Position numbers and translations under genes: made by a program. Source: Bacillota bacterium (lineage in GTDB: Bacteria; Bacillota; Negativicutes; Sporomusales; Sporomusaceae). From it: a stretch of 64,000 nucleotides of DNA. How positions within the stretch are numbered: the stretch's first letter is position 1; every line of letters begins with the position of its first letter. Below are positions 27,600-45,768 of this stretch, one piece after another. Below the pieces are notes generated by a model, which was not told the origin of the DNA, made no database searches, and was given only the letters and a program-made list of their open reading frames with translations. The stretch covers positions 62,001 through 126,000 of the forward strand of contig JAGGAB010000007.1 in the NCBI GenBank assembly GCA_017889705.1, in the 5' to 3' direction.

Positions 27600-27604
27600 G
27601 ATAC

Positions 27605-27650
27605 CCGGCTATGTGAGTTAAGTAAGCGGCGAAAGGCCGTTATTTTTATT
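27605..27650 (+). repeat. Left copy of CCGGCTATG...GCCGTTATTTTTAT hairpin repeat
   Basis: Direct-read similarity with 28179..28202. Confidence 0.65.
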
Positions 27651-27665
27651 TTGGGAGTGTTGACT

Positions 27666-28178
27666 TTGGAGTTTAGAAAAGCTTTGGAATTAATGAAACA
27701 AGGCGTAGATGTTAAGCGCCCGCATTGGTCGGGATTTTGGCGACTTGAAGATGGCAAAATTATGATGTACTGCAAAGATGGCCAAGTCCTGGACTTTAGG
27801 GAAACTAAAGATACCTTGTTTACGATCTCTAGCATCCTGTCCGACGATTGGGAAGTGGCAGATGCCGTTAACAGTAAGCTTCTCAATGGAGAGATAATCA
27901 GTACGTTCACCTTTGGAGAAGCATTGCGGAACATGAAACAAGGTAACAAGGTTGCCCGTAAAGGCTGGAACGGCCATGGTATGTGGGCCGTTATGCAAAA
28001 GGGTTATCCTGATGGTATCCATATCAATAAGAATACTGCCGAAGCTACTGGAATACCGGAAGGCACCTTAATGAAGTTTCGGCCTTATTTTATGCTGTTT
28101 ACTGCGCAAGGCGATTTTGCTCATTGGGTGCCGAGCAGCAGCGACATACTTGCCGATGATTGGCAGATTGTAGAGTAA
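27666..28178 (+). CDS. Tandem DUF2829 protein, Tad2 (anti-Thoeris)-like
   Basis: Two homologous halves: FRKALELMKQGVDVKRPHWSGFWRLEDGKIMMY...LSDDWEV and FGEALRNMKQGNKVARKGWNGHGMWAVMQKGYP...MLFTAQGDFAHWVPSSSDILADDWQI; start 27651 or 27666 (TTG). Confidence 0.82.
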   Translation: MEFRKALELMKQGVDVKRPHWSGFWRLEDGKIMMYCKDGQVLDFRETKDTLFTISSILSDDWEVADAVNSKLLNGEIISTFTFGEALRNMKQGNKVARKGWNGHGMWAVMQKGYPDGIHINKNTAEATGIPEGTLMKFRPYFMLFTAQGDFAHWVPSSSDILADDWQIVE

Positions 28179-28202
28179 CCGGCTATGAGCCGTTATTTTT
28201 AT
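28179..28202 (+). repeat. Right copy of CCGGCTATGAGCCGTTATTTTTAT hairpin repeat
   Basis: CGGCT-atg-AGCCG stem followed by TTATTTTTAT. Confidence 0.65.
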
Positions 28203-28226
28203 GCCTAAATTTAAGGAGGTTCAACC

Positions 28227-28907
28227 ATGACTGACCAAATGACCGCGGCACAGGGTAACACCAACGCCGTCGAGAGCGCATTTGACTTGCAATTATTTGC
28301 AGAGGGTGATCCGGCACCAGATCCGGTTACTGATCCAGCGCCAAGTGATCCAAACCCTACACCTGACCCAACAACGGAGCCGGTAAATAATCCTGATCCG
28401 ACAACGGGTAATCCTGCTGATCCAAAGCCCGACCTGTTGGCCGACTATAAGCCAACTCTACCGGAAGGTTTCACGGCTGATGAAGCCATTATGGGCGAGT
28501 TTCTACCGCTTGCCAAGGAACTAGGTATTTCCGGTGAGCAGGCCGATAAGCTGATTGGCGTAGGCGCTCACCTTGCAGAACGGGTTATTGCTGACATTAA
28601 CCAGCAGTGTGAATCCAAGTATGGTGAAGCAATTAACGCTATTAAGGCCGAGCAGGGATCCGACTTCGAGAAGAATGTCGGGCAGGTAAACGCTCTGTTA
28701 ACCAAGTACGGCGACAAGAACACGCCAGAAGCTTTTCAAGCTGCTATGACAGCGTTGGCCGGATATGCGCCGGACGCAGTCAAGCCGCTTTATGATGCCC
28801 TAATCAAAATAGGGAAGGATGCTGCTGACCCTAGTTTTCATATGGGATCAAGCGCACCGAGTGGGCCTAAATCATTAGGCGATGTTTTATATGGAAAAAG
28901 CAAATAG
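28227..28907 (+). CDS. Putative scaffold/capsid assembly protein with Pro/Asp-rich N-terminus
   Basis: Directly upstream of the capsid gene; DPAPDPVTDPAPSDPNPTPDPTTEPVNNPDPTTGNPADPKPD. Confidence 0.65.
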   Translation: MTDQMTAAQGNTNAVESAFDLQLFAEGDPAPDPVTDPAPSDPNPTPDPTTEPVNNPDPTTGNPADPKPDLLADYKPTLPEGFTADEAIMGEFLPLAKELGISGEQADKLIGVGAHLAERVIADINQQCESKYGEAINAIKAEQGSDFEKNVGQVNALLTKYGDKNTPEAFQAAMTALAGYAPDAVKPLYDALIKIGKDAADPSFHMGSSAPSGPKSLGDVLYGKSK

Positions 28908-28922
28908 AAAGGATGATGACAA

Positions 28923-29921
28923 ATGGCAACTTTAAATGAAACTATGTGGAGTTGGAAAGACTACGCTTCACAACAAGACCCTGACGGAATGGCGGCTCGC
29001 GTAATCGATATTATGAGCGAGGAAAACGCCATCGTCGAAGATATGTATGTTATGCCCGGTAATAAGGATTATGGTCTTTTGACCTCGCAAAACGCTACCG
29101 AACCAACCGTATCAATCCGTGGTGTTAACGGTACTGTTACTGGAACTAAGGGCGCATTCAAACAACTGGAAGCCCATTGTGCACTATTTACCGCGCTTGG
29201 GCAGATCGACAAAGAACTTTATAACGCTGCTACCGACAAAAACGGCTTTCGTGCAAATGCGAATAAGCCGTTTTTTAACGCCATGCCGAAGCGCATTGCT
29301 AATGAACTGTTCTATGGCAGCAAAGCTAACGATGCACAGTCGTTTGATGGCTTGTCCCAGTTCTACAAAAGCACAACTACCGATGAGTTTGGCGAATATG
29401 TCGCTTTGGCCGGGGGAACGGGAACAGACAACCGCTCTATTTGGCTGATTGATTGGGGCGAAGATTCTTGTTGCGGCACTTATCCGAAAAACACCGTGGC
29501 TGGTTTGCAGCATACTCCATACCCAGAAACTCTTGTGGATATGCCGGATGGTTCAAAATGGCCGGCACTGCAGGACTTGTGGGAATGGCGTGTAGGTGTT
29601 GCTGTCCGCGATTACCGCAAGGTATACCGGATTGCTAACATCAGTAAGGCTGCCCTGAAGTCAATTAATACAACTAACGACACAGCACCAAACTTGTTTG
29701 ATCTTATGATTGATGCCTTGACTTGGGTTAATCCTTCGCCGCGTGCAAGGTTTTACGGTGACCGTAATATTATGTCCGCATTCACTAAGCAGGCTTTCAA
29801 TAAGTCTAACAACCTTGTGTCGATGGAAGAAATCTACGGCAAGAAGCGTGTGCCGTCCTTTATGGGTGTACCTATTCGCCGTTGTGATGCACTCGACACT
29901 GATGAAAGTCTCGTATCCTAA
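28923..29921 (+). CDS. Major capsid protein
   Basis: Position and length; NETMWSWKDYASQQDPDG...FYGDRNIMSAFTKQAFNKSNNLVSMEEIYGKKRVPSFMGVPIRRCDAL. Confidence 0.85.
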   Translation: MATLNETMWSWKDYASQQDPDGMAARVIDIMSEENAIVEDMYVMPGNKDYGLLTSQNATEPTVSIRGVNGTVTGTKGAFKQLEAHCALFTALGQIDKELYNAATDKNGFRANANKPFFNAMPKRIANELFYGSKANDAQSFDGLSQFYKSTTTDEFGEYVALAGGTGTDNRSIWLIDWGEDSCCGTYPKNTVAGLQHTPYPETLVDMPDGSKWPALQDLWEWRVGVAVRDYRKVYRIANISKAALKSINTTNDTAPNLFDLMIDALTWVNPSPRARFYGDRNIMSAFTKQAFNKSNNLVSMEEIYGKKRVPSFMGVPIRRCDALDTDESLVS

Positions 29922-29946
29922 TTAACTGAAAAGGGAGGAAAAAACA

Positions 29947-30354
29947 ATGTATGATCTTCAACTTAGTTTTACAAAGCAAACCAATGGAACGCCGAAACAG
30001 ACTATTACTGATTCGGCGGCTTCCACCAATGTATTAAACTTCGGCACCAAGGGGGCGTTTTATAAACCGGCTTATCTTCACATTCGTGTTGTAGATGCGT
30101 TTGAATCCGGTACTTCTGGCGCCACGCTTACCGCTGCATTGCAAAGCGATAGTGCCGAGGCTTTTTCAAGTGCGGCCACGATGGTTACGCCGATCAATGC
30201 CGTTGACCATGCCAACCTGACTGCCGGTTACCACAAAGTAATTCCGTTTCCTATCCAGGACACTGAGCAGTATTACAGGCTGTATTTTACCGCATCCGTA
30301 GCTATGACAGCCGGTAGTGTCGTTGCCTATATTAACGATTCGCCGGAGCTATAA
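29947..30354 (+). CDS. Bbp16-family capsid cement protein
   Basis: MYDLQLSFTKQTNGTPKQTITDSAASTNVLNFG...QYYRLYFTAS; follows major capsid. Confidence 0.75.
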   Translation: MYDLQLSFTKQTNGTPKQTITDSAASTNVLNFGTKGAFYKPAYLHIRVVDAFESGTSGATLTAALQSDSAEAFSSAATMVTPINAVDHANLTAGYHKVIPFPIQDTEQYYRLYFTASVAMTAGSVVAYINDSPEL

Positions 30355-30355
30355 G

Positions 30356-30502
30356 ATGTATAAATGTATACGTCCGGCTTATATTGACGGCAAACTTTAT
30401 GCAAAAGGTGCTGTTGTTGAAACGGTACCTAAGGGCTGGGACAAAAATTTCAGCATAACAAACCAAGAGAAGGTAAGTAAAACGAGGAAAAGGGACGGTT
30501 AA
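30356..30502 (+). CDS. Small phage protein (48 aa)
   Basis: MYKCIRPAYIDGKLYAKGAVVETVPKGWDKNFSITNQEKVSKTRKRDG. Confidence 0.55.
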   Translation: MYKCIRPAYIDGKLYAKGAVVETVPKGWDKNFSITNQEKVSKTRKRDG

Positions 30503-30526
30503 TTCCGTCCCTTCCCATTTTTATTA
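30491..30526 (+). terminator. Putative intrinsic terminator
   Basis: GGGACGGttaattCCGTCCC followed by T-rich run. Confidence 0.55.
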
Positions 30527-30540
30527 TTGAGGTGATTTCT

Positions 30541-31161
30541 TTGACTAAGTACGACATTTGTAATATTGCTTTATCAAATTTAGGCATTACCCGGTCTATA
30601 TCCAACTTCACAGATAACACCATTGAAGCCATGCTATGTGGCCGTTATTATGACTTAGCCAAAGAAATTGCCTTAACAGCTTACGAATGGAAGTTTGCCA
30701 ACATATACAACTCTGCGGCCTTGACACTAACCGAAGATGCACACGCAGAATATCAGTATGTTTATGAATATCCAGATGATTGTCTAAAGATTACCGCTGT
30801 TGGCACTGCAAGAGATTTAGGTGTATTTGAATATCCATTCGAAGTATTTGCTATTTATGATGAAAATTATGACACTGTTAAGCGCATTGGCTGCGATATA
30901 GCCGATGCAACGGCGAGCTATTTAGTCGATGTGGACGAAAATGCTATGCCGGCGGCTTTTGTTAAAGCCCTGTCGTGGGGAATTGCAGCAGAAGTTGCAT
31001 ACGGTCTTACGACTTCGCCCCAAATGGCGCAGTACGCTTCACAAATGTACGGCGTGGCGTTAAACCAGGCAATACACCGGAACTTTACCGAAGGGAAACA
31101 GACAAAGGAAATGCCTAGATACATCAGGGCGCGCGGAGGATGGTATCATGGCAAAGATTAA
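30541..31161 (+). CDS. Tail tubular protein A-like (T7 gp11 family)
   Basis: CNIALSNLGI...YDLAKEIALTAYEWKFAN; position before TTPB. Confidence 0.75.
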   Translation: MTKYDICNIALSNLGITRSISNFTDNTIEAMLCGRYYDLAKEIALTAYEWKFANIYNSAALTLTEDAHAEYQYVYEYPDDCLKITAVGTARDLGVFEYPFEVFAIYDENYDTVKRIGCDIADATASYLVDVDENAMPAAFVKALSWGIAAEVAYGLTTSPQMAQYASQMYGVALNQAIHRNFTEGKQTKEMPRYIRARGGWYHGKD

Positions 31162-33433
31162 GATGCAACCTTCGTTTGCTGCCGGTGAGCTCGCGCCTGC
31201 GCTAAGGCGGCGGACAGACCTACAAAAGTATGCAATTGGTGCCGATACAATTAAAAACATGGTTGTCTTACCACAAGGCGGCTTGCAGGCTCGAATAGGT
31301 ACAAAGTATGTAGCCTCTGTAAAAGCGCCGTTAAACAGCACCAGGCTTGTGTCATTTGCTTACAACACTGCACAGGCATACATACTTGAGTTTGGCGATT
31401 ACTATGTGCGGTTTTTCATGGACGGTGCGCAAATAGTTGTAAGCGACACGGACTCTACTCCTTATGAGGTTGCAACTCCTTACCCTGTGGCCGATATATG
31501 GAAGTTGAAATTTGAGCAGTCTGCAGATACGTTGTATATTATTCATCCAGACTATATTCCGAGGCTGCTTACCCGGACGGATCACAATGCCTGGACGCTA
31601 ACAGTTGGTGACTTTGAGTTTGGGCCACTTAATAACGAGAACAGCACTACTAAAAGAATCACGTTAAGCAATTCAGATGGTGATACATGGCTGTATGAAG
31701 GTGAAACCGTAACTGCCACAGCTTCTACAGGGCTGTTTAAGGAGGAGCATATCGGGTCAATATGGGGCATTCGTTATAGAGCGTTTAACGGTACTGAAAC
31801 TTATACCATATCTAGCGGTGTTGCATTTACAAGTGATGTCTTTAGGGTATTGGGAGACTGGACGGTAACAATTAGAGCCTATGGCGCTGACATGAATAAC
31901 TCTAACACCACTATCTATAAGTCGGTTGATGATGGATCTACTTGGTTCAAAATCAAGACTATAGTGGCAAATATCCAGGACGGCAGCACTTATTCTGTGA
32001 CCGGCTCAGAAGATGACGAATGTTTAATCAAGATTTCCAAGCCGGCTGCTGAAGATAGCGGCTCTATTACAATTGACTTATCAGGACAATATTCCTGGTG
32101 TTACTTTAAAATAACCGGTTATACCTCAACTACGGTTGCCACTGCTGTTATGCAAAATAACTTCAACAAAGGCGGTACTCCATTCAAAACATGGGCCGAA
32201 GGTGCTTGGTCAAGTTATAGAGGGTGGCAAAACTCAGTAACCTTCTTTCAAAACCGGTTGATGTTTGGCGGTAACGACAACTACCCTAATACCTATTGGG
32301 CGAGTTGCGTAGATGATTATTATAATAACGTGGTGAGCATTGACCAGGTAGAGGATGAATCAATACAAGACAGGCTGCCATCCAGGCAGGTAAACGCCAT
32401 TGAGTGGATGATACCTATGCAGGATTTAATTGTTTTAACACAGGATTCCGAATGGACTATAAGCCCGTCAACAACGACGGGTATTTTTTCGTACAAATCT
32501 AAGATAGTGAAACAGAGAGGTTCTAGTGGTTGCAATGGTAGTGTTAAACCGGTGGTTATTACCGACACGGTTATATTCTTACGGCGTAACGCCAATAAGG
32601 TCCAGGGATTAACCTACACGGATGCAAATGGCTATTCGTCATCTGAGCTATCAATCATGGCAGACCACTTATTTAGTGGGTATACCATTAAAAAATGGGC
32701 TTATCAACAGAATCCTAACTCTATTCTGTGGTGCGTGCGCTCAGATGGGGCGCTATTGTCATTTACCTATATGCCCGAGCAAGATGTATGGGCTTGGTCG
32801 CATCACGACACAGACGGCTTGTTTGAGGATGTTGAGGTTATTCCCGGAGATGCGCAGGACGAAGTATATTTCATTGTTAATCGGACAATTAACGGTTCTA
32901 CTTGCCGGTATATTGAAATGCTGGCAGAGCGGGACGTGACCAGCCGGGAAACATACTGGGGCGTGGACTGCGGAGCAAGCCAAAGCTATGATATGGCCAC
33001 AACTACGGTAAGCGACCTTGACTTCTTGGAAGGTAAATCAATCAGGGTTTTCGCTGACGGTGTTAATGTTGGCAAAAAAACCGTTTCTAGTGGCGTGATT
33101 ACTCTCGACAAAGCGGCAAGTTATGTGATGGTCGGACTTGATTATGATTGGCTTGTTAAGACGCTTAGTATTGATTCTGGTATAGACCGTAAGAAGTCGA
33201 TTAATAGCGTCACTGTATCGGTTGTAGATTCGTATGGCGGCGAAATTATGAGTAACGAAATAGACCTGCCGATTAAACTGCCTTATCCGGGCACCGAATA
33301 TTATACCGGTGACCTTATTGACGTAATCGCAAGTGCCACATGGGACTATCCCGGTCAGGTTATCATTCAGGGCACCGGTTACGATCCTATGCATATCGTA
33401 GCTATTACTCCGAAGGTGAGCTATGGAAGTTAA
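31148..33433 (+). CDS. Tail tubular protein B-like (T7 gp12 family)
   Basis: PSFAAGELAPALRRRTDLQKYAIGADTIKNMVVLPQGGLQARIGTKYVA...FFQNRLMFGGNDNYPNTYWAS. Confidence 0.85.
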   Translation: MAKIKMQPSFAAGELAPALRRRTDLQKYAIGADTIKNMVVLPQGGLQARIGTKYVASVKAPLNSTRLVSFAYNTAQAYILEFGDYYVRFFMDGAQIVVSDTDSTPYEVATPYPVADIWKLKFEQSADTLYIIHPDYIPRLLTRTDHNAWTLTVGDFEFGPLNNENSTTKRITLSNSDGDTWLYEGETVTATASTGLFKEEHIGSIWGIRYRAFNGTETYTISSGVAFTSDVFRVLGDWTVTIRAYGADMNNSNTTIYKSVDDGSTWFKIKTIVANIQDGSTYSVTGSEDDECLIKISKPAAEDSGSITIDLSGQYSWCYFKITGYTSTTVATAVMQNNFNKGGTPFKTWAEGAWSSYRGWQNSVTFFQNRLMFGGNDNYPNTYWASCVDDYYNNVVSIDQVEDESIQDRLPSRQVNAIEWMIPMQDLIVLTQDSEWTISPSTTTGIFSYKSKIVKQRGSSGCNGSVKPVVITDTVIFLRRNANKVQGLTYTDANGYSSSELSIMADHLFSGYTIKKWAYQQNPNSILWCVRSDGALLSFTYMPEQDVWAWSHHDTDGLFEDVEVIPGDAQDEVYFIVNRTINGSTCRYIEMLAERDVTSRETYWGVDCGASQSYDMATTTVSDLDFLEGKSIRVFADGVNVGKKTVSSGVITLDKAASYVMVGLDYDWLVKTLSIDSGIDRKKSINSVTVSVVDSYGGEIMSNEIDLPIKLPYPGTEYYTGDLIDVIASATWDYPGQVIIQGTGYDPMHIVAITPKVSYGS

Positions 33434-33857
33434 AACAGCGACACTTGCTGACGTGGATAACTTCGTCATGCGCCAGGATGATAAGGCAGAGATTTCAGAA
33501 CTGTACGGCTTAGAGCCATACGATGCATTAAGGCGGTCTATTATTGAATCTGAGGACTGTTGGACAGCCGCAAGTGAGGAAAAAGTCCTGTGTATTGCTG
33601 GCTGTAGTCGAAGCAGTGACGGTGGTTGTTTATGGGTATTATTCGCCGACATACAACTGTTGCCGCTGTCTTTTTTTAAAGAAAGCCGGAAACATGCTCA
33701 ATACATGCTGAAAAAGTACGGCAATTTATCAAACTACACGGCGGCAAGTAACGTGTTTGTTATTAAATGGGCGAAGTCATTAGGCTTTACGGTTGATGAA
33801 CCAATTTCCTACGGCCCAAACGGACGTTTATTTTGCAGATTCCACAAGGAGGGGTAA
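33423..33857 (+). CDS. T7 gp13-like internal virion/acetyltransferase-fold protein
   Basis: YDALRRSIIESEDCWTAASEEKVLCIAGCSRSSDGGCLWVLF...KWAKSLGFTVDE. Confidence 0.65.
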   Translation: MEVKTATLADVDNFVMRQDDKAEISELYGLEPYDALRRSIIESEDCWTAASEEKVLCIAGCSRSSDGGCLWVLFADIQLLPLSFFKESRKHAQYMLKKYGNLSNYTAASNVFVIKWAKSLGFTVDEPISYGPNGRLFCRFHKEG

Positions 33858-33858
33858 T

Positions 33859-34395
33859 ATGTGCTTGCCAGTAATCAGCGCAGTTGCTGAATTAGGATCG
33901 GCAATATCGCAATCACAGGCCAGTAAACAACAGGCTGCCATTGCAAGCCAAAACGCAAAACTAGCAGAAGAACAAGCCAACGAAGTACAGATACAAAAGC
34001 AAGCGGAATTAAACCAGATCAACGACGAAAAGCGGCAGACTATGGGAACGCAACGAGCGGCTGCGGCGGCCAACGGTGGCGACACTAGCATGGGAACAGG
34101 GCTTGGCATTTTAACCGGCACCGCCTACAAGGCCCAGGAAGATAAAAACGACACGGAATATAACTTTGAACTTCAGTCCAATGCTTACCGGCAACAGGCC
34201 AATGATTACCGCAATGCGGCAAGTATATATAAATCCAATGCCAAGAATCAGTTGTATGGTGGCATATTGGGGGCTACGGGAACATATTTCTCAAAACTTA
34301 ACCCATATAAAAAGGCTAACGGTGCCGCGTCAGCTTCTAAATCATTAAAAATACCCAAGTACGGCTCTGTAGCAAAATCAGTATATGAGTGGTGA
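33859..34395 (+). CDS. Internal virion protein (T7 gp14-like)
   Basis: MC start, Ala/Gln-rich helix ISQSQASKQQAAIASQNAKLAEEQANEVQ; position. Confidence 0.65.
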   Translation: MCLPVISAVAELGSAISQSQASKQQAAIASQNAKLAEEQANEVQIQKQAELNQINDEKRQTMGTQRAAAAANGGDTSMGTGLGILTGTAYKAQEDKNDTEYNFELQSNAYRQQANDYRNAASIYKSNAKNQLYGGILGATGTYFSKLNPYKKANGAASASKSLKIPKYGSVAKSVYEW

Positions 34396-34400
34396 TGTAA

Positions 34401-35906
34401 ATGGCAACAATACCAAGCTATGAAAGAAAGGTAGGCATTAACGCGCCGCCAACCGTTAGGGTAGACCCTACATCTGTTTCAGCTAATACTTACGGTCAGC
34501 AAGTTTTTCAGGGGATGGAAAAGGCCGCTGCAGGGATGCAAGAGTATCAGGATAAGCAGGATACTGCCAATGTAGTTGCTGCAAAAAACGATATACAGAA
34601 CCGCATGACAGATTTGTTGTATAACAAGGATAGCGGGTTGATGTTTAAAGAGGGCGCACAGGCTAATGGCTTAGGAAACACTTTTAATACTGAATTTGAT
34701 AAAAGCGCCAATGACATTCGGAAGGGGTTAAAAAACTCGAGACAACAACAGGCGTTTGACCAATATATTGCCAATTATCGCAATGGCCTAAATGTGCACA
34801 TAAATACGCATGAAGTTAAACAGAGTGATGTTGCCCTTGCGGATTCGTTTAAAAATCTTACCTATACGACATCTAACTCTCTTAGCCAGCCCGGTGTTTA
34901 TCGTAACCCAGAATTGGTAAATACGATGCTGAACGATTGGGAAAAAGGCGCAAGGGCAACAAACTATAGGAAAGATGACGAAACAATTAGTCGAATAATT
35001 GCTACTGGTCGCGGTGAATTATTAAAAAGCTCTCTTGACGTACTGTATAAACAAGACGATGTTAACGGCGCGAGAGACTTTATTAAATTATACGGCAACC
35101 AAATGGATGCCAATACTATTGCACCTTATCAGGGGTGGGTTGAAAAGAAAGACAGAAAAATACAATCTGCCAATATCGCTGATTCATTGTTTTCTAAATA
35201 TGGTGTTGAAAATGAACGGGCAGCAATGCAAGAATTGAAGGCCGCTTACGGTAATAGCCCAATGTTTGACACAATATCAACTAGCTTACAAGCAAAGTAC
35301 GTTGATGAAAGAAGATATAAAGCTGATGCTGATAAGCAAAAACAAGAAAGTATTATAGCAAGTATTTGGAAAGCCGGTTCATTGCAAGAGGCGCAGGATA
35401 TTATTGACAACGCCGATATTAAGCCTAGTCAAAAACTTTACTTATTGAATCAGGCAAAAGGCGCAATGAAAGCATTGGCTGTCCCGGCTGATAGCGAATA
35501 TAAACAGCAGGCCAAACATTGGGCTACTTACCGGCTGAATGGCGGGCTAGAAAGGCATATGCTACAACTCCGGGAATATTATACGAAGATTGGCACCGGT
35601 GAAGTAATTACGCCAGAACAGCAAACTAAATACGATTATGCCGCCTCGCAAGTAAATAACTACAAGATTTTTATGAGCAATGGCGGTTTTGATCCTGCCG
35701 CCGAAGATGCAAAGGCTGCACAAGCGCAAGAAACTGAACAGGGCATTTGGCAAGCGATCAATGATTTAGCTAGTAAAGGGCTGAAGAAGCAACAAATCAT
35801 CGACAAGATTAACGTAATTGCTCCTAAGTATGGTTATAAAGCTTCGTATTTTATTGATAATGCTGAATGGGATAAGCAAGGGAATCAAAAGGGTGGTGTT
35901 CAATAG
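34401..35906 (+). CDS. Internal virion protein (T7 gp15-like)
   Basis: Large helical protein between gp14-like and polyvalent ejection protein. Confidence 0.6.
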   Translation: MATIPSYERKVGINAPPTVRVDPTSVSANTYGQQVFQGMEKAAAGMQEYQDKQDTANVVAAKNDIQNRMTDLLYNKDSGLMFKEGAQANGLGNTFNTEFDKSANDIRKGLKNSRQQQAFDQYIANYRNGLNVHINTHEVKQSDVALADSFKNLTYTTSNSLSQPGVYRNPELVNTMLNDWEKGARATNYRKDDETISRIIATGRGELLKSSLDVLYKQDDVNGARDFIKLYGNQMDANTIAPYQGWVEKKDRKIQSANIADSLFSKYGVENERAAMQELKAAYGNSPMFDTISTSLQAKYVDERRYKADADKQKQESIIASIWKAGSLQEAQDIIDNADIKPSQKLYLLNQAKGAMKALAVPADSEYKQQAKHWATYRLNGGLERHMLQLREYYTKIGTGEVITPEQQTKYDYAASQVNNYKIFMSNGGFDPAAEDAKAAQAQETEQGIWQAINDLASKGLKKQQIIDKINVIAPKYGYKASYFIDNAEWDKQGNQKGGVQ

Positions 35907-38900
35907 TGGGCGCATATGAAGATATGATGTCGGGAACAGCCGAAATTCCTAACCAGCCAGTAGATAAGGGGTGGTTAGGCAATGCATTTGATGATGTTGA
36001 AACTGTTCTGTCGAACTACGCCATTGGCGCATATCAAGGAGGCCGCGAGGTAGTCACGGAGGGCAATAGGTTAGCGGAGAGTAACCCCCTTGCCTTAACT
36101 GGCACGCCTATGCAGGATGGAATAACAAATGCGCCAGCACCGCAACAGACTGAAGAACAGCAACAAGCCGGGGCATTATACAAAGAAGCTACCGGGAACT
36201 TTGGCGAAGAAACTATCAAGGCACCTTTAGGTGTTGCGGGTTTAGTTAATCCAGTAGCCGGCGCTGCTTATCTGCCATTTCTGGCGCATGATGTAGGCAA
36301 ATCATATGAAAAAGGCGGCGTGGGCCAAGCGGCACGAGACTTAACTTATGGGCAGGCAGTGGACTTTGCTAGTCAACCTAATTTAGCCCAACAATTTAAG
36401 CAAAAACCTGTATCTACTGCCGCGAATGCTGCAATGTCTGTCTTGCCTATGGCACTATTAGGACGCGGCCTATACGACAGCGTTGCGCGAATACCGAAAG
36501 TAAACGAAAAAGGGATACCTATTAACGAAGATATTCAAAGGCAAATTGCTGATGATTTTAATAGCGTTCAAGAGCCGATACTTGCGCCTACTACTGCTGG
36601 CGCAGACATTATAACAATCGGTGAAAAACAACTTGGCAAACCGTATGAATTAGGCGCAAATGGGTTTGATGCTACCGATTGCGGCAAATTCACTCAGGAC
36701 GTATTCGCAGAGAAAGGCATCACTCTTGAAAAGCGCACGGCAGACGGGCAATACGGTCAGTTGGAGCAAGAGGGGAAAACCTTTGAAGATGCCGCGCAAC
36801 TGCAAGAAGGGGATTTGGTGTTTTGGGATGTTCCAAGTAACAGAGAGCGGTGGAAACCTTCAGACGATCCTAATGCTGTTAATATGGATGGCGAGGCATA
36901 CAAAGGAATCACTCACGTTGGCATATACGCCGGTGAAGGCAAGGTATTACAGGCGGGTAGCCGCGGTGTAAGCTATATGGATTTAGACACTTATCCGGTA
37001 GTTGGCTATGGCAGGGCTGTTGACAGTAATACAACAGGGCGCGTTTATGCTTCTAGAGATAAGGCCGAGCGGTATAATGAGCGCAATATCGATGATGATA
37101 TTAGGATTAACGAAGACTTATTTAAAAGTAAAGACTTTTGGGAAATGACCAAAGAAGAGTACGAAAAAGTACAAGGAGATAGAAATTCGTTATTTGATGA
37201 AACCCAAGTCGCCGAAAATATACAACGCGGGACTGAAGCTATTGATCGTGTTATTAATAACCAAATTGATGTAAATGACGCTATGCACCGTCCAGATTTG
37301 GGCAGTATATCTTTTTACTGGGGTAATAAGAAAGAGGGCATTAAACACATCATTGATAGACGTACTGCGCAGGGATATGACGGCAATGCGATTGCCAGAA
37401 AAATGGTTGATGTTATTGCCAATGGCGAAGCTGGCGAAGTATATGGACCAGAAGGCGGTCACAGAGTCAACTTATCTTATGACGGACACACCGCTGTTTT
37501 ATCATTATTTAAACACGGCGATAAACAAACATGGCTGCTAACTGGTTGGGAAAATTACAAAGAGGCTCCCGGTGCAACCAATGGGGGTAACGGCCCATTT
37601 GGTGCTACGCGTTTCGAGCCTATGCGTACTCGTCTCGAAACGGTTGCGGAAACCTCTTCTAAGATCAATATAAATCAAAAAAATAGCAAAGTCAATGGAA
37701 AGCAATCACACAAGCAAATTATTGAGCAAGCGCTTAAAACTGGCAGGAAAGTATCTAAAGATGTATTAAAAGATTATCCTGATTTGGTTGAAAAATACCC
37801 AGGAATTGAATATTCCCTTACTAAAGGTGCAGTCTCTGAATCTATGCGCAGTGACATGCTTAACAGGGCACATGAAGCCGCCATGAATAACGACTTTGAA
37901 ACGGCCTATACCCTTGCGAAACAATCCGGCGATCCTGCTTGGGAAAATGCATATAAACTACTGAAAGACACCGACGGCGGCGAAGTACCACCAGCGCCTA
38001 GGTTAGGCGGCGACGTAAAAGGCAAATATGACGGCAAAAACATTACCATGAAAGAGTTGCTAAACCGGGTCAATGATATATTTGCTCCTATTCGCACCGG
38101 TCGTATTGGTCATAAAGGTGTTGAAGGCTTTGTTAACCACGGAACCGGAATAATCCGTACTAAGGACTACGGTGATTTAAACGTCGCGGCGCACGAAGTC
38201 GGTCATTTAGTCGATGCAGCACTGGGGTTGAGAAAAGAACCTGCTTTTGATGCCGAATTTAAGAAAATTGTACATGAGCGATTTGGTGAAGGAGCATACG
38301 CGCCCGAGCAAGTCAGGGCAGAAGGGATTGCCGAGTTCACCAAAGACTATATAAATAATCCTGAAAAAGCAAAACAAAATTTCCCTAACTACTTCGCGGC
38401 ATTTGAAGAAGCTTTGTCTAAAAATGCAGACGTTCGTGCAAGAGTTAATGAGTTTAAAGACATGGTGCAGGCTTGGAACAACCAATCGCCGGAGGCCAGG
38501 GGGCGTGGCGCAGTATCATTTGCCGGAGATAACAAGTTTGAAACATTGAAGGATAATGCTAAATCTATGGCATACAAGGCCTATGAAGCGTTTTTCGATG
38601 ACAAAGTGGAGTTAGCCCGGTTCACATCTGAGATCGAAAAGCAACTAGGCCGCAAACTTGAATTTGAGCAAAACCCATACAAGAAAGCGCGAATGGTGCA
38701 AAATTCTTCACTGGCAAGGGCTGAAATGCTTGTGTCAGATAGCAATCCTGAGTTGGTACAAGCAACCTTGAATAAGTTGTACAACGGCAAATTGGAACAT
38801 GCCGTCACTATTAGGGAAATAGTTGAGGGGCTTAACCGCAAAACACTGAATGAAAAATATCCTGAGTACCTTAAAAACGGCAACTTTAAGACATGGCAAC

Positions 38901-40954
38901 AGGCTTTTAGTACATTACTCACAGCTAAGCGGCAAATTGAAATACAAAAGCTTGAACCAGGATATAAAGGCCCAATGTCAAAACTGGATGCTGAAGCCAT
39001 AGCAAAAAATTCCCCAAAAGAACTGCAGGAATTGACAGAGAAATTTTATCAATACAACGACAATTTGCTGGCCATTGCCGAAGATAGCGGAATTATTAGC
39101 AAAGAAACTCTTACTGTCCTGCGTGACAAGTATAAAAACTATGCTCCGATGATGCGCGACTTCGCCGACGAAGGTGCTATGACTGATGCCTTTAGTACTG
39201 GTAAAAAGATTGGTAATGTTGGCAATCCGCTCAAAAAATTAACCGAGGAAGGTTCAACAAGAACGGTTATTGATCCGCTTGAAAACACAATTAAAAACAC
39301 CTATACCGTATTGAGTGCTGCCGAACGCAATAAGGTTGCGCAAACTTTTATTCAACTGAATAAGGAAAGCGGTCTAGGTAAGTTTATTGAAAAAGTGGCC
39401 GGCACTACAAGTGATGCCAATAAAAGCATATTTACTGTCATGGTAGACGGCGAAAAACAAGCATTTCAAACTACACCGGAATTTTACCGGGCCATAATGT
39501 CGATGAATCAACAATCAAGCAATATGCTTATTAGTATGCTCAAGCCGTTTGCGCAAGCGTTAAGGGTTGGAGCAACCATATCACCTGATTTTGTAGTGAG
39601 AAACCTTATCCGCGACACTCTGACAGCCGGCTTATATTCGGAAACGGGGTTTAAACCGGTATTAGACACTATAAAAGGAGCTAAATCATTAGCGACTAAC
39701 AAGGAATTGGCTTATGAGTTCAAGGCGTCCGGCGCTCCGTTATCGGCTTTTGTTGGCCTTGATCGGTCAAGTGTTGGCAGTATGCTCGATAAAATGGGTG
39801 GCGGCAGTGAGTGGCGCAAATATAACCCGTTAACCTACATTGAAGCCGCATATCAAGGTGCTAGGAAAGTATCAGAAGCGGCAGAATCAGGCACTAGGGT
39901 GCGGGAATTTGAACGAGCCAGACAACAGGGAGTAAGTATTGAAGAAGCGGGGTTATTAGCCAAGGATGTTACTCTTGACTTTAGCCGATCCGGTACTATT
40001 GGTAGACAGATTAACCAAATAGTGCCGTTTTTTAATGCCGTTTTGCAGGGTGGAGATAGGTTTTTCCGGTCATTCAAGGATAACCCAGCAAGAACAACGG
40101 CTTTTGCGCTTACCTATATTACCCTTCCTAGCGTAGTAACTTGGCTTATGAACCATGACCAAGAGTGGTATAAAGAGCTGCCGGATGACGTGAAAAATTC
40201 AAGTTGGTTACTTGAACACAACGGAACTATCATTCGTATACCCAAACCGTTTGAGCCTGGCATTGTTTGGGGTTCATCAATTGAACGGGCATTAGACCAA
40301 ATGTTTAACGAGGATAAAGATGCCGTTACGCAATGGGCTAAGTACGCTCTTGACGGCTTTGCCCCAAGTATTATGCCGACTTTAGCAGGGCCGCTAATTG
40401 AATGGATAACAAATTACAATTTCTTTACCGGCAAGCCTGTCGTTGGCAGAAAAGAGCAAGGCTTACCTGACGAACTTCAATATAATGCATATACTTCCGA
40501 GATGGCAAAGTCGTTAGGTAGCGCAACCGGTACTTCCCCAATGAAGATAGACAATACCATTAATGGGTATACTGCCAGCGCCGGTAAGTTCTTAGTGGGA
40601 CTTACGGACAATTTAATAGGCAACCCCAAAGAATTGCCTGCTAAGACAATGTCGGAGTTGCCCGGTATTCGTGGATTAACTTATACGCCGCTTAAAAATC
40701 CGCAATCGGTCGAAGAATTCTATAATAAACTTGAAGAAGTCGAAAAGACTTACAACGCATCTGGTAAGAAAGGCAATCCTCCTGCAGAAGTCAAGAAAAT
40801 GCGGCAGAATGCAGAAAGAATCAAGGACCTTAACAAAGAAAATCGCAACATTACTAATGACGATAAACTGACCCCCGAGCAGAAGCGGCAAAAGATTGAC
40901 ACCAATGCAGCAAAAGTATTGCAGATTGCCAGAAAAGCAATAGGGAAAAATTAG
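35906..40954 (+). CDS. Giant (1682 aa) polyvalent internal virion/ejection protein: NlpC/P60 + PBECR-like nuclease + HEVGH zincin + LPD38-like region
   Basis: NlpC/P60 GKPYELGANGFDATDCGKFTQDVF...THVGIYAGEGKVLQAG; SFYWGNKKEGIKHIIDRR...; AHEVGHLVDAALGL...AEGIAEF; GTG start overlapping upstream TAG. Confidence 0.8.
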   Translation: MGAYEDMMSGTAEIPNQPVDKGWLGNAFDDVETVLSNYAIGAYQGGREVVTEGNRLAESNPLALTGTPMQDGITNAPAPQQTEEQQQAGALYKEATGNFGEETIKAPLGVAGLVNPVAGAAYLPFLAHDVGKSYEKGGVGQAARDLTYGQAVDFASQPNLAQQFKQKPVSTAANAAMSVLPMALLGRGLYDSVARIPKVNEKGIPINEDIQRQIADDFNSVQEPILAPTTAGADIITIGEKQLGKPYELGANGFDATDCGKFTQDVFAEKGITLEKRTADGQYGQLEQEGKTFEDAAQLQEGDLVFWDVPSNRERWKPSDDPNAVNMDGEAYKGITHVGIYAGEGKVLQAGSRGVSYMDLDTYPVVGYGRAVDSNTTGRVYASRDKAERYNERNIDDDIRINEDLFKSKDFWEMTKEEYEKVQGDRNSLFDETQVAENIQRGTEAIDRVINNQIDVNDAMHRPDLGSISFYWGNKKEGIKHIIDRRTAQGYDGNAIARKMVDVIANGEAGEVYGPEGGHRVNLSYDGHTAVLSLFKHGDKQTWLLTGWENYKEAPGATNGGNGPFGATRFEPMRTRLETVAETSSKININQKNSKVNGKQSHKQIIEQALKTGRKVSKDVLKDYPDLVEKYPGIEYSLTKGAVSESMRSDMLNRAHEAAMNNDFETAYTLAKQSGDPAWENAYKLLKDTDGGEVPPAPRLGGDVKGKYDGKNITMKELLNRVNDIFAPIRTGRIGHKGVEGFVNHGTGIIRTKDYGDLNVAAHEVGHLVDAALGLRKEPAFDAEFKKIVHERFGEGAYAPEQVRAEGIAEFTKDYINNPEKAKQNFPNYFAAFEEALSKNADVRARVNEFKDMVQAWNNQSPEARGRGAVSFAGDNKFETLKDNAKSMAYKAYEAFFDDKVELARFTSEIEKQLGRKLEFEQNPYKKARMVQNSSLARAEMLVSDSNPELVQATLNKLYNGKLEHAVTIREIVEGLNRKTLNEKYPEYLKNGNFKTWQQAFSTLLTAKRQIEIQKLEPGYKGPMSKLDAEAIAKNSPKELQELTEKFYQYNDNLLAIAEDSGIISKETLTVLRDKYKNYAPMMRDFADEGAMTDAFSTGKKIGNVGNPLKKLTEEGSTRTVIDPLENTIKNTYTVLSAAERNKVAQTFIQLNKESGLGKFIEKVAGTTSDANKSIFTVMVDGEKQAFQTTPEFYRAIMSMNQQSSNMLISMLKPFAQALRVGATISPDFVVRNLIRDTLTAGLYSETGFKPVLDTIKGAKSLATNKELAYEFKASGAPLSAFVGLDRSSVGSMLDKMGGGSEWRKYNPLTYIEAAYQGARKVSEAAESGTRVREFERARQQGVSIEEAGLLAKDVTLDFSRSGTIGRQINQIVPFFNAVLQGGDRFFRSFKDNPARTTAFALTYITLPSVVTWLMNHDQEWYKELPDDVKNSSWLLEHNGTIIRIPKPFEPGIVWGSSIERALDQMFNEDKDAVTQWAKYALDGFAPSIMPTLAGPLIEWITNYNFFTGKPVVGRKEQGLPDELQYNAYTSEMAKSLGSATGTSPMKIDNTINGYTASAGKFLVGLTDNLIGNPKELPAKTMSELPGIRGLTYTPLKNPQSVEEFYNKLEEVEKTYNASGKKGNPPAEVKKMRQNAERIKDLNKENRNITNDDKLTPEQKRQKIDTNAAKVLQIARKAIGKN

Positions 40955-41190
40955 TCAATCATTATACCATGTGACCCCTTGGGGCGTAATCCTAAACACA
41001 TCAAAACTATCATTATTACAACAAAGAAAGCTATCATCATAAATGTTTCAGTTGAACTTTGCGCCCCACTGCGGTTACAACGTAGTTGCCTGGCTAAATC
41101 GGAAAACCCGTTAATAAATGCGCCAATTATGCCAAAGGCCATTATTATTCCAAGGGGTATGCTGATTATGTAATAAATTTTCTCAAACAT
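40951..41190 (-). CDS. Small two-TM membrane protein on the reverse strand (candidate moron)
   Basis: MFEKIYYIISIPLGIIMAFGIIGAFINGF...TFMMIAFFVVIMIVLMCLGL; RBS GGAGGGATACT before ATG 41190. Confidence 0.65.
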   Translation of the reverse strand: MFEKIYYIISIPLGIIMAFGIIGAFINGFSDLARQLRCNRSGAQSSTETFMMIAFFVVIMIVLMCLGLRPKGSHGIMID

Positions 41191-41258
41191 AGTATCCCTC
41201 CACAATTAATTATATCACCAACAAAGACGCCTAGCGCGTCTATTTTTACGCAAAGGAG

Positions 41259-41600
41259 GTGTTCAACATAATAACACCAGCCAATAAAGACCTTCCGGTA
41301 ATAATTAAGGGCACGGTTTACGATCCAGTGCTAACCATTACTGTCAACGGCGTGGCAAAGGATTTGGCAGCCTGCACCGCTACGCTGAATATCACCAAAA
41401 GTGCGACCGACACTGACAGCCTGTTAGCACTCACTGAAACAAGCGGCCTAACACTAGGAACTGATGGAACTATTGAAATTGAAATGCAGGAAACGACTAC
41501 ATCAAGTCTACCCGTTGGGATGGCTCATTATGCGCTTGATGTGGTCGAATCAGGCGACACTTTCCGATACATGGAAGGGAATATACCTATAAGGAGTTGA
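41259..41600 (+). CDS. Phage tail/appendage protein (GTG start)
   Basis: Beta-rich protein; RBS AAAGGAG; position. Confidence 0.55.
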   Translation: MFNIITPANKDLPVIIKGTVYDPVLTITVNGVAKDLAACTATLNITKSATDTDSLLALTETSGLTLGTDGTIEIEMQETTTSSLPVGMAHYALDVVESGDTFRYMEGNIPIRS

Positions 41601-41604
41601 TAAC

Positions 41605-42192
41605 ATGGCTAAAGATGTGATTGTGGTCGAATTAAGCACGGCTGATAAGCGGATAGCAAGAACAGTAACTGCCAACACAACAGCAGCGGCAGAGAGTGCC
41701 ACGGCTGCGGCAACCAGTGCGGCTAATGCGGCGACAAGCGAGACTAATGCGGCAACCAGCGCAACAAGTGCAGCTACCTCAGCGAGCTCGGCATCTACTT
41801 CGTTGGCTACTATGGAAACAACATTATCTACTGCGATAACAACAGCAACCAATACAGCAACAACGGCAGCGACAGCAGCAGCGCAAAGCGCAACTGAGGC
41901 GGCACAAAGCGCGGCGCTGGCACTAGGCGCAGAGGCCGAGGCGTGGAGTGCAACAACTACCTATAATTACCCGGATGTAGTTGCCTATACAGACGGTTAT
42001 GCCTACCGGTGCATAGGAACTGCGGTGCTTGGAGACATACCGCCAGATAGTGCTAACTGGGTAAGGGCCGCATGGGTAGCAAATGATTTTTTTGACATTG
42101 ACGAAGATGGCGACTTAATGCCGGCGTTAAGCCCGACATACTCAGCAGATTTTGAACTTGACGAAGATGGCGACATTATGCCAAAAGAATAG
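41605..42192 (+). CDS. Tail fibre-like protein with Ala/Thr/Ser repeats, carbohydrate-binding-like segment and DEDGD repeats
   Basis: ATSAANAATSETNAATSATSAATSASSAST; EAWSATTTYNYPDVVAYTDGYAYRCIG; two DEDGDxMP motifs. Confidence 0.65.
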   Translation: MAKDVIVVELSTADKRIARTVTANTTAAAESATAAATSAANAATSETNAATSATSAATSASSASTSLATMETTLSTAITTATNTATTAATAAAQSATEAAQSAALALGAEAEAWSATTTYNYPDVVAYTDGYAYRCIGTAVLGDIPPDSANWVRAAWVANDFFDIDEDGDLMPALSPTYSADFELDEDGDIMPKE

Positions 42193-42202
42193 GAGGTAAC
42201 TC

Positions 42203-43222
42203 ATGGCTGAAAGAAAATATGTCCCTAGAAGTAACGCGGATGGCGGCGTGGGGAAAGCAAGTAAGCATTTTGCCGATGGGTACATAGATGATTTATATGT
42301 CGAAAATTTAACGGCTACCGGCGATGTTAATGCGGTTGGCGTAACCGCGACTGCTTACACCGGCGTAACCGGATCAATGGTTGCAAATACTCCTACTGGC
42401 AATATAACATCAACTACAGTTCAAGATGCAATAAATGAATTAGACATAGAAAAAATTGCAAAACCATCTAGTCCATCTGTAGGTATGACTTTGATTTTTA
42501 ATGGAACCGACTGGGTAACATGGAATCAGATGGTTGGTCGCAATAAATTAATTAACGGGAACTTTGCCGTAAATCAGGAGGGTGTTTCAGGAACAGTAAC
42601 GCTTACTGCAGGAACTTACGGCCACGACGGCTGGAAAGCAGGTTCTAGTGGTTGTACTTATACCTTTGCCACCGCAGAAAATGTAACAACCATAACAATT
42701 ACAGCAGGCACTTTACTGCAAGTTGTCGAGGGCATAAACCTACAAAGCGGTACACACGTATTGTCCTGGACTGGTACAGCAACGGGGCGTATAAATAGCG
42801 GTAGTTATAGCGCAAGCGGTGTAACTGGAACGGCAACAGGTGGTACAAATTTGACTGTTGAATTCGGTACAGGAACATTAAGTAAGGTGCAATTTGAAAA
42901 AGGTTCTATAGCCACCGTGTTTGAGGAAAGACCGTATGGATTAGAGTTAAATCTATGCAAGCGGTATCTCGAAATAATTAGTATATCGCAGCGAGGATAT
43001 TCTGTTGGTGGAAATTATATTTATGGTATACCTATAAATTGGACGGTTCAAAAAAGAACCACTCCAACTGTTACCAATACTGGATATACAGATAGAACCA
43101 ATATATCAACGGTTTCGATATCGCTGCAAACAGTTTATGGTGCTAGATACACGGTAACTGTTGCTGCTACTGGTACATATTCGTCAACGGAAGAAATCAT
43201 TAAAGCGGACGCAAGACTGTAA
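42203..43222 (+). CDS. Tail fibre/receptor-binding protein
   Basis: KHFADGYIDDLYVENLTATGDV...; position after fibre-like ORF. Confidence 0.65.
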   Translation: MAERKYVPRSNADGGVGKASKHFADGYIDDLYVENLTATGDVNAVGVTATAYTGVTGSMVANTPTGNITSTTVQDAINELDIEKIAKPSSPSVGMTLIFNGTDWVTWNQMVGRNKLINGNFAVNQEGVSGTVTLTAGTYGHDGWKAGSSGCTYTFATAENVTTITITAGTLLQVVEGINLQSGTHVLSWTGTATGRINSGSYSASGVTGTATGGTNLTVEFGTGTLSKVQFEKGSIATVFEERPYGLELNLCKRYLEIISISQRGYSVGGNYIYGIPINWTVQKRTTPTVTNTGYTDRTNISTVSISLQTVYGARYTVTVAATGTYSSTEEIIKADARL

Positions 43223-43233
43223 GGAGGGAATAT

Positions 43234-43566
43234 ATGTATAAACTGACAAAATCAACGGCGATTATAAGACTAGCTGACAATGCTAATATTGCTGCCAAGG
43301 AAGATAATCGCGACTATCAAGAATATCTCGCTTGGGTAGCCGCAGGAAATACACCAGAAGCAGCACAGACCGAAGCAGAGATATTGACCGAAAAGACTAC
43401 TGCTTTAGATATCGAATATCAAACAACAATCGACCAATTAGCGCAAGACTACTCCGCTGCGCTCATGGCAGACAAACTTTTCGGAACATCTACAGCAGAC
43501 GAAGTTTACACTGAGTACGAAGCCGCAGTCTCAGCTTATAAAACAGCATTGGAGGCGATTGAATAA
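43234..43566 (+). CDS. Tail fibre-associated phage protein
   Basis: MYKLTKSTAIIRLADNANIAAKEDNRDYQEYLAWVAAGNTPEAA. Confidence 0.55.
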   Translation: MYKLTKSTAIIRLADNANIAAKEDNRDYQEYLAWVAAGNTPEAAQTEAEILTEKTTALDIEYQTTIDQLAQDYSAALMADKLFGTSTADEVYTEYEAAVSAYKTALEAIE

Positions 43567-43715
43567 TGGCAACTAGTAGATGTTTTATATGCCGGTCAAA
43601 GAACGACACGGAAACAGGGTATTGCACTAACTCTAAGTGCCCAAGGTACAAGGCAACAGAAACGACAACGGAAACCACGACAACCGAGACTACTGAAACA
43701 ACAACTACCGCATAA
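43566..43715 (+). CDS. 49-aa Cys motif + Thr-rich tail protein
   Basis: Manual translation MATSRCFICRSKNDTETGYCTNSKCPRYKATETTTETTTTETTETTTTA; TAATG overlap with upstream ORF. Confidence 0.6.
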   Translation: MATSRCFICRSKNDTETGYCTNSKCPRYKATETTTETTTTETTETTTTA

Positions 43716-43733
43716 GGCGGTTATTTTTATGTC
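43707..43733 (+). repeat. Third hairpin + TTATTTTTAT motif
   Basis: CCGCataaGGCGGTTATTTTTATGTCTTAATTT. Confidence 0.5.
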
Positions 43734-43751
43734 TTAATTTGGAGGTGTAGG

Positions 43752-44015
43752 GTGGGGGAATTTTTAGCTAATATAGTGGCGTGTATAACAATCATTGCAT
43801 TTGCTGCCGGAGTTATCGCCGGCATAACAAAATATGTAGTTGTTAATCCATTGCAGACGGCGATCAGTACGCTAAACAAGACGGTAGAGGAACTAAAAAA
43901 CATGCTTGACCGTATGGAACAAGATCAGCGCGATATTGACAAGCGGTTAGTAGCCGTCGAGGAATCAAGTAAATCTGCTCACAAACGAATTGACGGATTG
44001 GAGGTTAGGGCATGA
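43752..44015 (+). CDS. Holin-associated/XhlA-like membrane protein
   Basis: N-terminal TM then NKTVEELKNMLDRMEQDQRDIDKRLVAVEES coiled coil. Confidence 0.55.
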   Translation: MGEFLANIVACITIIAFAAGVIAGITKYVVVNPLQTAISTLNKTVEELKNMLDRMEQDQRDIDKRLVAVEESSKSAHKRIDGLEVRA

Positions 44016-44482
44016 CGAAGGTGGTAGCTGAACATGTTGAGCATATGACATTCTCCGAGGAAAAAGTCATTGCTGCACATGATGACCGTAGCGAAAATGT
44101 TTCTTTGTTTCATAAGTCAAAAAAACAACTGGAAGAGGATGGACATATAACTTGCTTTATTTGCGGAACATCAGAAGATATTGAAACACATCATTACGGC
44201 TGTGAAAAGGCAGATGAAAATAACTGTGATTTTGAAGAGTTAAAGGCATATTTACTATGCAATGATGTTTACGGATACAGCCATAAAATGATTGATATTC
44301 CATTGACTTCTGTTGATGATATTCGCAATCAAATGCAGCTTTGTACAGTTCACCATAGGGGCAAATGTACCGGCGCTCATTGCACGACTCACGGCACTTG
44401 GATAATGCAAAAAATCGGCAAGGCTAATCCGGTAAAGCAACCGGGCGAAACCATAGAACAAGTACAAGAAAGGGTGGTGTAA
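44012..44482 (+). CDS. HNH-like Cys/His-rich protein
   Basis: CFICGTSEDIETHHYGCE...MQLCTVHHRGKCTGAHCTTHGT. Confidence 0.55.
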   Translation: MTKVVAEHVEHMTFSEEKVIAAHDDRSENVSLFHKSKKQLEEDGHITCFICGTSEDIETHHYGCEKADENNCDFEELKAYLLCNDVYGYSHKMIDIPLTSVDDIRNQMQLCTVHHRGKCTGAHCTTHGTWIMQKIGKANPVKQPGETIEQVQERVV

Positions 44483-45043
44483 GTGGAAGGATTTAAACAC
44501 GTAACGCTAGTCGAACTGAAAGAACTTGCACTAGCAGCAAAGGCCGATCTGCAGGCTGCCGCTAAATCGGTAGGCCGTGACATTAAACTCTACCTGCACT
44601 GGTCTGCTGGTCATTATGGCAGCTTCTTTGATGACTACCATATCAATATTGATGCAGACGGCAATGTTTATACCAGTACCGATGATCTGGCAGAGTTAAA
44701 GGCGCATACATGGCATCGCAATACCGGAGCAATAGGAATATCTCTTGCCTGCTGCTATCAGGCGACTAGCAATAATTTAGGGCCGGAGCCGCCAACGAAA
44801 CTACAGATTGAAGCTATGGCACAGGTAGTATCTGTTCTATGCAGCGCGCTGGGTATTTCGATTGACACAGAGCATGTCATGACTCACGGCGAAGCTGCCG
44901 ATATCGATGGTTATGGAATCAATAGCGGCGATCCAGAAACAAGATGGGATTTACTGTTTCTGAAAAACGGTGACAAATGGTATTCTGGCGGCGAAATCCT
45001 GCGGGGTAAAGCCGTTTTTTATCAACAAACAATAAAAATATAA
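44483..45043 (+). CDS. N-acetylmuramoyl-L-alanine amidase (Amidase_2-like endolysin)
   Basis: YLHWSAGHYGSFFDDYHINIDADG...HTWHRNTGAIGISLACCYQ...HVMTHGEAAD. Confidence 0.85.
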   Translation: MEGFKHVTLVELKELALAAKADLQAAAKSVGRDIKLYLHWSAGHYGSFFDDYHINIDADGNVYTSTDDLAELKAHTWHRNTGAIGISLACCYQATSNNLGPEPPTKLQIEAMAQVVSVLCSALGISIDTEHVMTHGEAADIDGYGINSGDPETRWDLLFLKNGDKWYSGGEILRGKAVFYQQTIKI

Positions 45044-45061
45044 AAATTGGAGGAATGAAAC

Positions 45062-45241
45062 ATGATTACTTTAATTCGCGTTGAGGACACTGGTATTTTT
45101 GCATTGCCGGAGGGCGTAAAGGGCGAAGTCGTAAAGGTGCTTGCCGATGGTAACGAAGTAGAGTTTGCAATTGCCGAGAATGGCGCTATTGACGTTATCG
45201 AGTATGACGGCAAAGCCGTGGTAACTGCCGAGGTTGAATAG
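45062..45241 (+). CDS. Small phage protein (59 aa)
   Basis: MITLIRVEDTGIFALPEGVKGEVVKVLADGNEVEFAIAENGAIDVIEYDGKAVVTAEVE; RBS GGAGG. Confidence 0.55.
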   Translation: MITLIRVEDTGIFALPEGVKGEVVKVLADGNEVEFAIAENGAIDVIEYDGKAVVTAEVE

Positions 45242-45768
45242 TGGCAAAACTAATTCATATATTTGTTGGTGGAGAATCCTTTGCTGACAAAACAATAAAG
45301 AAATATAGCCATGCCGGTAATGATGACATTGTTCACGTTGCCGGCATAATCTTTGGCCGGACATTAGAAGCGCTAGCCACAAAAGACGAAGGCGATCTGT
45401 ACCCTGGTACCTGGTTGCACCGCAAGGATAAGTATTTCAACAACCCCAATGCGCGCTTTATTATGGTTGACGTTCCAGACTTAGCGGCTGGGATGGACGT
45501 AGCCAGTGGTTTGCTGGGTACTCCCTACGGTTATAGCGATTGCTTGAAAACTGCCATATTCGAAGAAACTGGTACGCAGTTACCGGATTCTGACGCAACG
45601 ACCATGTGCGCTGAAGATTGGGTGAGGATTGACCGGGGCGCAGGCTTGCCGGTACTGCCCGATATTGAACCCGGTAATATTTCGCCTGTGCGTTTTTACC
45701 GGGCGCTCATAAACGATCATGGCGGGATTGATGTTACGCATCTGTTTCGCAATAAAGGAGTGGCTTAA
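45241..45768 (+). CDS. Papain-like NlpC/P60-superfamily (YiiX-like) protein
   Basis: NDDIVHVAGIIFG (His) and LLGTPYGYSDCLKTAIF (Cys) arrangement. Confidence 0.55.
   Translation: MAKLIHIFVGGESFADKTIKKYSHAGNDDIVHVAGIIFGRTLEALATKDEGDLYPGTWLHRKDKYFNNPNARFIMVDVPDLAAGMDVASGLLGTPYGYSDCLKTAIFEETGTQLPDSDATTMCAEDWVRIDRGAGLPVLPDIEPGNISPVRFYRALINDHGGIDVTHLFRNKGVA

Follow-up and report, generated by a model that had tools for sequence, protein, structure and literature searches.

An LPD38 polyvalent protein at the gp16 position of a temperate podovirus appears to join two exchangeable enzyme slots to a conserved chassis

The DNA analysed here, referred to as the window, is a 64,000-nucleotide stretch of contig JAGGAB010000007.1 from a Sporomusaceae bacterium (GenBank assembly GCA_017889705.1, positions 62,001 to 126,000), and it carries a temperate podovirus prophage whose late operon ends with a gene for one 1682-amino-acid (aa) protein. 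An initial annotation of this locus, made from the letters alone, had described the protein as a polyvalent ejection protein of four enzymatic modules that digests the cell wall and carries both a nuclease and a protease into the host. The locus thus raises the question of which parts of such a chain would be cargo and which would belong to the machinery that delivers it. In the reading we favour, to which we assign a probability of about 0.62, the protein is the largest ejection protein of the phage, working in the manner of T7 gp16 but with added cargo; it would open the wall, deliver a nuclease and most likely be processed by its own zincin.

The single open reading frame (ORF) is intact, as first described. 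Its GTG start shares one base with the stop of the preceding gene, and homologues whose alignments begin at residue 1 support this choice of start. A membrane-helix-like stretch (residues 108–126) lies in the N-terminal segment ahead of an NlpC/P60 domain (PF00877), which Pfam matches at residues 244–309 with an E-value of 6.5e-13 and 49 bits against a cut-off of 23, in agreement with the peptidase annotated at ~36600..37020. Its catalytic set can be located as C259 (DCGKF), H337 (THVGIY) and, likely, Q349; the Cys and His are kept in aligned relatives, and the third site is Q or H. The nuclease annotated at ~37255..37570 corresponds to PBECR1 (PF18809; residues 459–553, E 1.2e-6), whose 29.4 bits are just over the cut-off of 27.6. 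All 10 sequences compared, drawn from phages as well as bacterial genomes, keep H481, R520 and T546, and the equivalents of H481 and T546 are the two positions that Iyer et al. (PMC5512222) name for the PBECR fold, a His in the first helix and a C-terminal Thr/Ser. The C-terminal LPD38 domain (PF18857; residues 1419–1587) matches with 147 bits against a cut-off of 27; the domain itself had been named correctly, whereas the extent given for it, ~39500..40900, is too wide, the remainder being a separate conserved region. As LPD38 is non-enzymatic, the protein has three putative enzyme modules and the earlier count of four is overstated by one. Several unrelated domains nonetheless share one chain, wall hydrolase and nuclease are separate modules, and the catalytic residues on which the domain assignments hinge are kept in homologues (NlpC Cys and His, PBECR1 H481 and T546, and HE-G-H of the zincin described below).

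The third putative enzyme, a zincin-type metallopeptidase with HEVGH and a distal AEGIAEF, is not named by Pfam, yet the alignment with relatives bears it out. Its residues are H763-E764-x-G766-H767, D770, E806 and E810 (38192..38338). In 21 sequences, 23–62% identical to the window protein, HExGH never varies at its H, E, G and H positions, and conservation is at least 90% at the Asp three residues past this motif and at each Glu of RAEGIAEF. Three relatives (L061, L062 and L063) carry HELAGH, an HEXXXH form, in place of HExGH; for polyvalent metallopeptidases (MPTases), Iyer et al. (PMC5512222) describe such a variant and, in one phage clade, an Asp three residues after HEXXH. In the alignment of the 21 sequences, strand 2 does not end in a conserved His as it does in one phage MPTase clade of that article, which argues against that clade and not against the fold, since the article describes 12 clades. 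The Pfam family MPTase-PolyVal (PF18818) does not match the window protein at E ≤ 1 and matches one relative at 0.053. The weak Pfam matches, none significant alone, are mostly zincins, namely Reprolysin_5 (six members), MPTase-PolyVal, a lethal-factor-type family and Zn_peptidase_2. A PDB sequence search with the zincin, the core and PBECR1 returned nothing significant; three of the four weak matches of the zincin segment are zincins. Profile comparison with the zincin of the N4 virion RNA polymerase (vRNAP) placed the top alignment on the HExxH helix and the preceding strand in the correct register, with a score at the top end of those given by shuffled controls. Between close relatives, omega of the zincin is ~0.13–0.15 (0.13 for L072 versus L073), indicative of purifying selection. 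Judged by its sequence, the segment of residues 701–880 is a real conserved unit although Pfam leaves it unnamed.

The division between cargo and machinery emerges from a comparison of 44 non-redundant, Pfam-annotated relatives. The C-terminal core with LPD38 is almost always present, and the zincin, found in 32 of the 44 (a biased count, some of the relatives having been found with a zincin query), occupies one fixed position ahead of the core. Domain order is unchanged, while the contents of two slots vary: slot 1 holds NlpC/P60, SLT, M15, glucosaminidase or phage (tail) lysozyme, and slot 2 holds PBECR1, PBECR3, an ART-PolyVal-like domain or nothing recognised. Matched pairs capture such exchanges. 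The genes of L072 and L074 are ~91% identical in DNA over aa 1–433 and 597–1634 with no similarity in between, and the differing stretch, bounded by sharp DNA breakpoints, encodes PBECR1 in one and PBECR3 in the other. L005 and L007 match over aa 1–221 and 404–1083, and aa 222–403 differ, with NlpC in one and M15 in the other. In the same vein, the window NlpC is ~80% identical to that of L094, the flanks only ~28%. PBECR1 is itself under purifying selection (omega 0.08, L072 versus L073). On this comparative sequence evidence, the protein is best described as a fixed chassis (N-terminal segment, zincin, core and LPD38) with two exchangeable slots, one for a wall hydrolase and one for an effector.

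The largest relatives add SNF2-type helicases. Two giants carry SNF2/strawberry-notch-type helicase modules, L032:4403-16147 (3915 aa) and L034:5391-16688 (3766 aa), the former combining SLT, helicase, PBECR1 and a zincin region whose HExxH has been lost. L036 (G017:C31, ~18540-19049) contains PBECR1 as an ORF of its own, ~240 aa long and 50% identical to the window nuclease, which is a possible cassette source.

The coordinates of the protein, its segments and the genes around it are collected in the table.

Table. Features of the 1682-aa protein and of the surrounding prophage (positions in the window)
Feature	Position	Strand	Basis or remark
LPD38 polyvalent, putative ejection protein gene, 1682 aa	35906..40954	+	last gene of T7-ordered late operon, gp16 position
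Conserved N-terminal segment, residues 1–~214	35906..36547	+	common to L005, L006, L007 and L028
Slot 1: NlpC/P60 peptidoglycan peptidase domain (putative), residues ~228–377	36587..37036	+	Pfam and catalytic residues
Slot 2: PBECR1 nuclease domain (putative), Pfam residues 459–553	37280..37564	+	Pfam and invariant residues
Zincin-type metallopeptidase domain (putative), residues 701–880	38006..38545	+	alignment with relatives
Conserved core, residues 881–1418	38546..40159	+	conservation in relatives
LPD38 domain, non-enzymatic, residues 1419–1587	40160..40666	+	Pfam E 7.6e-43
Phage integrase, at opposite prophage end	3947..5512	-	phrog_95, also DNA invertase phrog_125
Tail tubular A-like, gp11 position	30532..31161	+	phrog_394
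Tail tubular B-like, gp12 position	31148..33433	+	phrog_376
T7 gp13 homologue	33423..33857	+	phrog_308; hhalign 7.7e-8 to T7 gp13
Internal virion protein, gp14 position	33793..34395	+	phrog_418
gp15-position ejection protein (putative)	34401..35906	+	N-terminus similar to phrog_1044
Separate prophage endolysin	44483..45043	+	phrog_5867

The genomic setting fits the ejection context that had been proposed. From tail tubular A to the 1682-aa gene, the order is that of T7 gp11-12-13-14-15-16 (the T7 gp12–17 order was inspected), and T7 gp13 itself also matches phrog_308. The gp14-position protein gave no significant hhalign match to T7 gp14; the gp15-position protein is not significantly similar to T7 gp15, and no murein hydrolase was recognised in it. 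The prophage spans ~3947..45768 and is bracketed by a 41,822-base IMG/VR contig, of which 19,863 compared bases are 100% identical, the far end being placed from the length of that contig. It encodes an integrase, probably of the serine recombinase type given its phrog_95 and DNA-invertase matches, as well as a repressor, an anti-repressor, replication genes, portal, protease and head protein, followed by the tail tubular and internal virion proteins, the 1682-aa protein, fibre-like genes and the endolysin. No 14-base direct repeat was found at the prophage ends as an attachment site, and the late region had no megablast match among phage records. The prophage further carries a tRNA-Tyr (GTA) gene (21596..21687) and a DNA methyltransferase gene (phrog_56; 14253..15050). 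Genes for LpxC, an Omp85/BamA-family protein and Spo0A are present in the host genome (assembly contamination estimate 8.8%), so the host is probably a diderm spore former, as fits Negativicutes and as had been assumed.

In T7 gp16, the N-terminal hydrolase works at the wall for entry, and the rest of the protein gets as far as the inner membrane and cytoplasm (PMC8954989); by analogy, we propose that slot 1 works at the wall, slot 2 in the cytoplasm and the core with LPD38 in the channel. The protein would be packaged in the head and ejected at infection along with the other internal proteins. The NlpC/P60 module would cut peptide cross-links so that a trans-envelope channel could pass the wall, and the core and LPD38 part would provide the channel or serve an inner-membrane or DNA-entry function. 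The PBECR1 nuclease would reach the cytoplasm, where it may cleave RNA during takeover or defence evasion, and the zincin would process the chain, freeing cargo or core, instead of being cargo itself.

Both slot assignments have to be weighed against other uses of the same domains. Phage NlpC enzymes occur in several roles, and the module here could serve lysis or virion assembly and not entry. The prophage, however, has a separate endolysin and does not depend on this module for lysis; relatives fill slot 1 with SLT, M15, glucosaminidase or phage tail lysozyme domains, and the hydrolase of T7 gp16 serves entry (PMC8954989). A lysis or assembly role is accordingly very improbable. Hardly more credible is a PBECR1 that acts like a polymorphic toxin aimed at competitors and has a partner immunity gene, although MuF-type proteins of temperate phages are described as carrying exchangeable toxins that immunity proteins can counter (PMC12226406). 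Across the PBECR1/PBECR3 exchange, 6 kb upstream and 0.56 kb downstream are unchanged, no adjacent gene swaps with the nuclease, and no linked immunity gene was found beside it; the genes in the next divergent stretch look like those for a holin-like protein and an amidase-like endolysin.

For the zincin, too, other roles have to be considered. If it were delivered as an effector, as the initial annotation held, and cleaved proteins of the host, its conserved catalytic residues would be expected; other conflict systems do use zincin effectors, and Iyer et al. (PMC5512222) keep this option open. Unlike cargo, however, the zincin stays constant at its fixed position before the core while both adjoining cassettes are exchanged, and we consider the effector explanation unlikely. 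Being constant and lying between cargo and core, it looks like machinery, a part of the chassis; its most likely use, predicted from the sequence comparison, is processing of the chain, which the same article (Iyer et al. 2017, PMC5512222) had proposed earlier for polyvalent proteins. Several observations weigh against the reading we favour. The motif is absent in L032, L034, L043, HTVC034P and Page, so that the zincin is dispensable to the chassis. According to PMC5512222, N4 vRNAP enters the particle uncut although it has a zincin, and self-cleavage is therefore not a given. The window protein has no close relative suited to a selection test on its own cassettes, and with T7 gp16 the core and LPD38 share position only, homology being undetectable. 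The uncut N4 protein, whose zincin-bearing region is required for encapsidation (same article), together with the loss of the motif in homologues that retain the core, makes it possible that the zincin is mainly structural or regulatory in packaging or ejection, with catalysis marginal. The invariance of HE-G-H across 21 diverse sequences and the low omega speak against this explanation, which we regard as doubtful though conceivable. Processing of the chain by the zincin remains our preferred interpretation.

The kind of protein is known. Phage polyvalent proteins were described in 2017 (Iyer et al., PMC5512222); they unite unrelated enzyme domains in one chain encoded among virion genes, with PBECR, zincin MPTase and LPD38 all named and wall hydrolases frequent. 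With at least two unrelated activities predicted and a place among virion genes, the 1682-aa protein is, on its sequence, a well-resolved new member of this kind and not wholly new; the T7-type operon position and the clean two-slot swaps are what the present family adds. The main text of that article does not name NlpC/P60, though phage tails are well known to contain NlpC (PMC7824862).

Like T7 gp16, the protein closes the gp13-14-15-16 block before the fibre genes, is very large, has a murein hydrolase, here putative, in its N-terminal half, and has hydrophobic segments in its N-terminal part; in some relatives such segments also lie ~285 residues before the end. It differs in having an NlpC/P60 peptidase where gp16 has a transglycosylase, and in its added nuclease and zincin. 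Homology of the core and LPD38 to the gp16 C-terminus was rejected as unproven, despite a first weak alignment that looked collinear: with nine gp16 sequences the hhalign score fell within the shuffled range and was beaten by the best of 60 shuffles, the gp16 proteins of SP6, phiKMV and P-SSP7 scored like reversed controls, and the window protein does not match the T7 gp16 family phrog_342. Lacking detectable C-terminal homology, the protein is not filed in the gp16 family and is its positional equivalent only. We tentatively suggest, as less probable than not, that LPD38 proteins fill the gp16 role separately from gp16 and without homology to it, with a two-slot chassis, independent cassette recombination and a zincin that would release cargo after entry.

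Among other systems, gp44 of the cultured Pelagibacter phage HTVC034P shares the operon position and is homologous over core and LPD38 (E ~1e-155), yet it has 1229 aa and no recognised hydrolase, nuclease or zincin. N4 vRNAP is likewise a giant ejected protein, in which a large helical C-terminus comes after an HExxH zincin (PMC12633501), and it differs in the polymerase it carries; profile comparison detected no homology to that C-terminus. A second syntenic podovirus lies in the same assembly (G000 contig C150), its late genes matching the window phage in patches at 70–79% DNA identity. Its 1693-aa protein (L035:1379-6457, minus strand) also follows a gp15-like gene and combines NlpC/P60 with a PBECR nuclease, which is PBECR3 instead of PBECR1; neither a zincin motif nor LPD38 was called in it. 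Bacillus phage Page, a podophage that infects a Gram-positive bacterium, encodes an LPD38 protein as well (gp20; L121, 2953-7992), in which Pfam recognises no hydrolase.

Taken together, the modular ejection protein is real and well supported, ordinary in kind and instructive in its details. Because near-identical genes differ by single cassettes, matched pairs would allow the role of the zincin, processing or host attack, and the targets of injected PBECR nucleases to be tested. The comparison offers an argument for separating cargo from machinery in a phage-injected protein, and it connects LPD38 polyvalent proteins with the gp16 position in ejection operons of T7 order, those of cultured Pelagibacter phages included.

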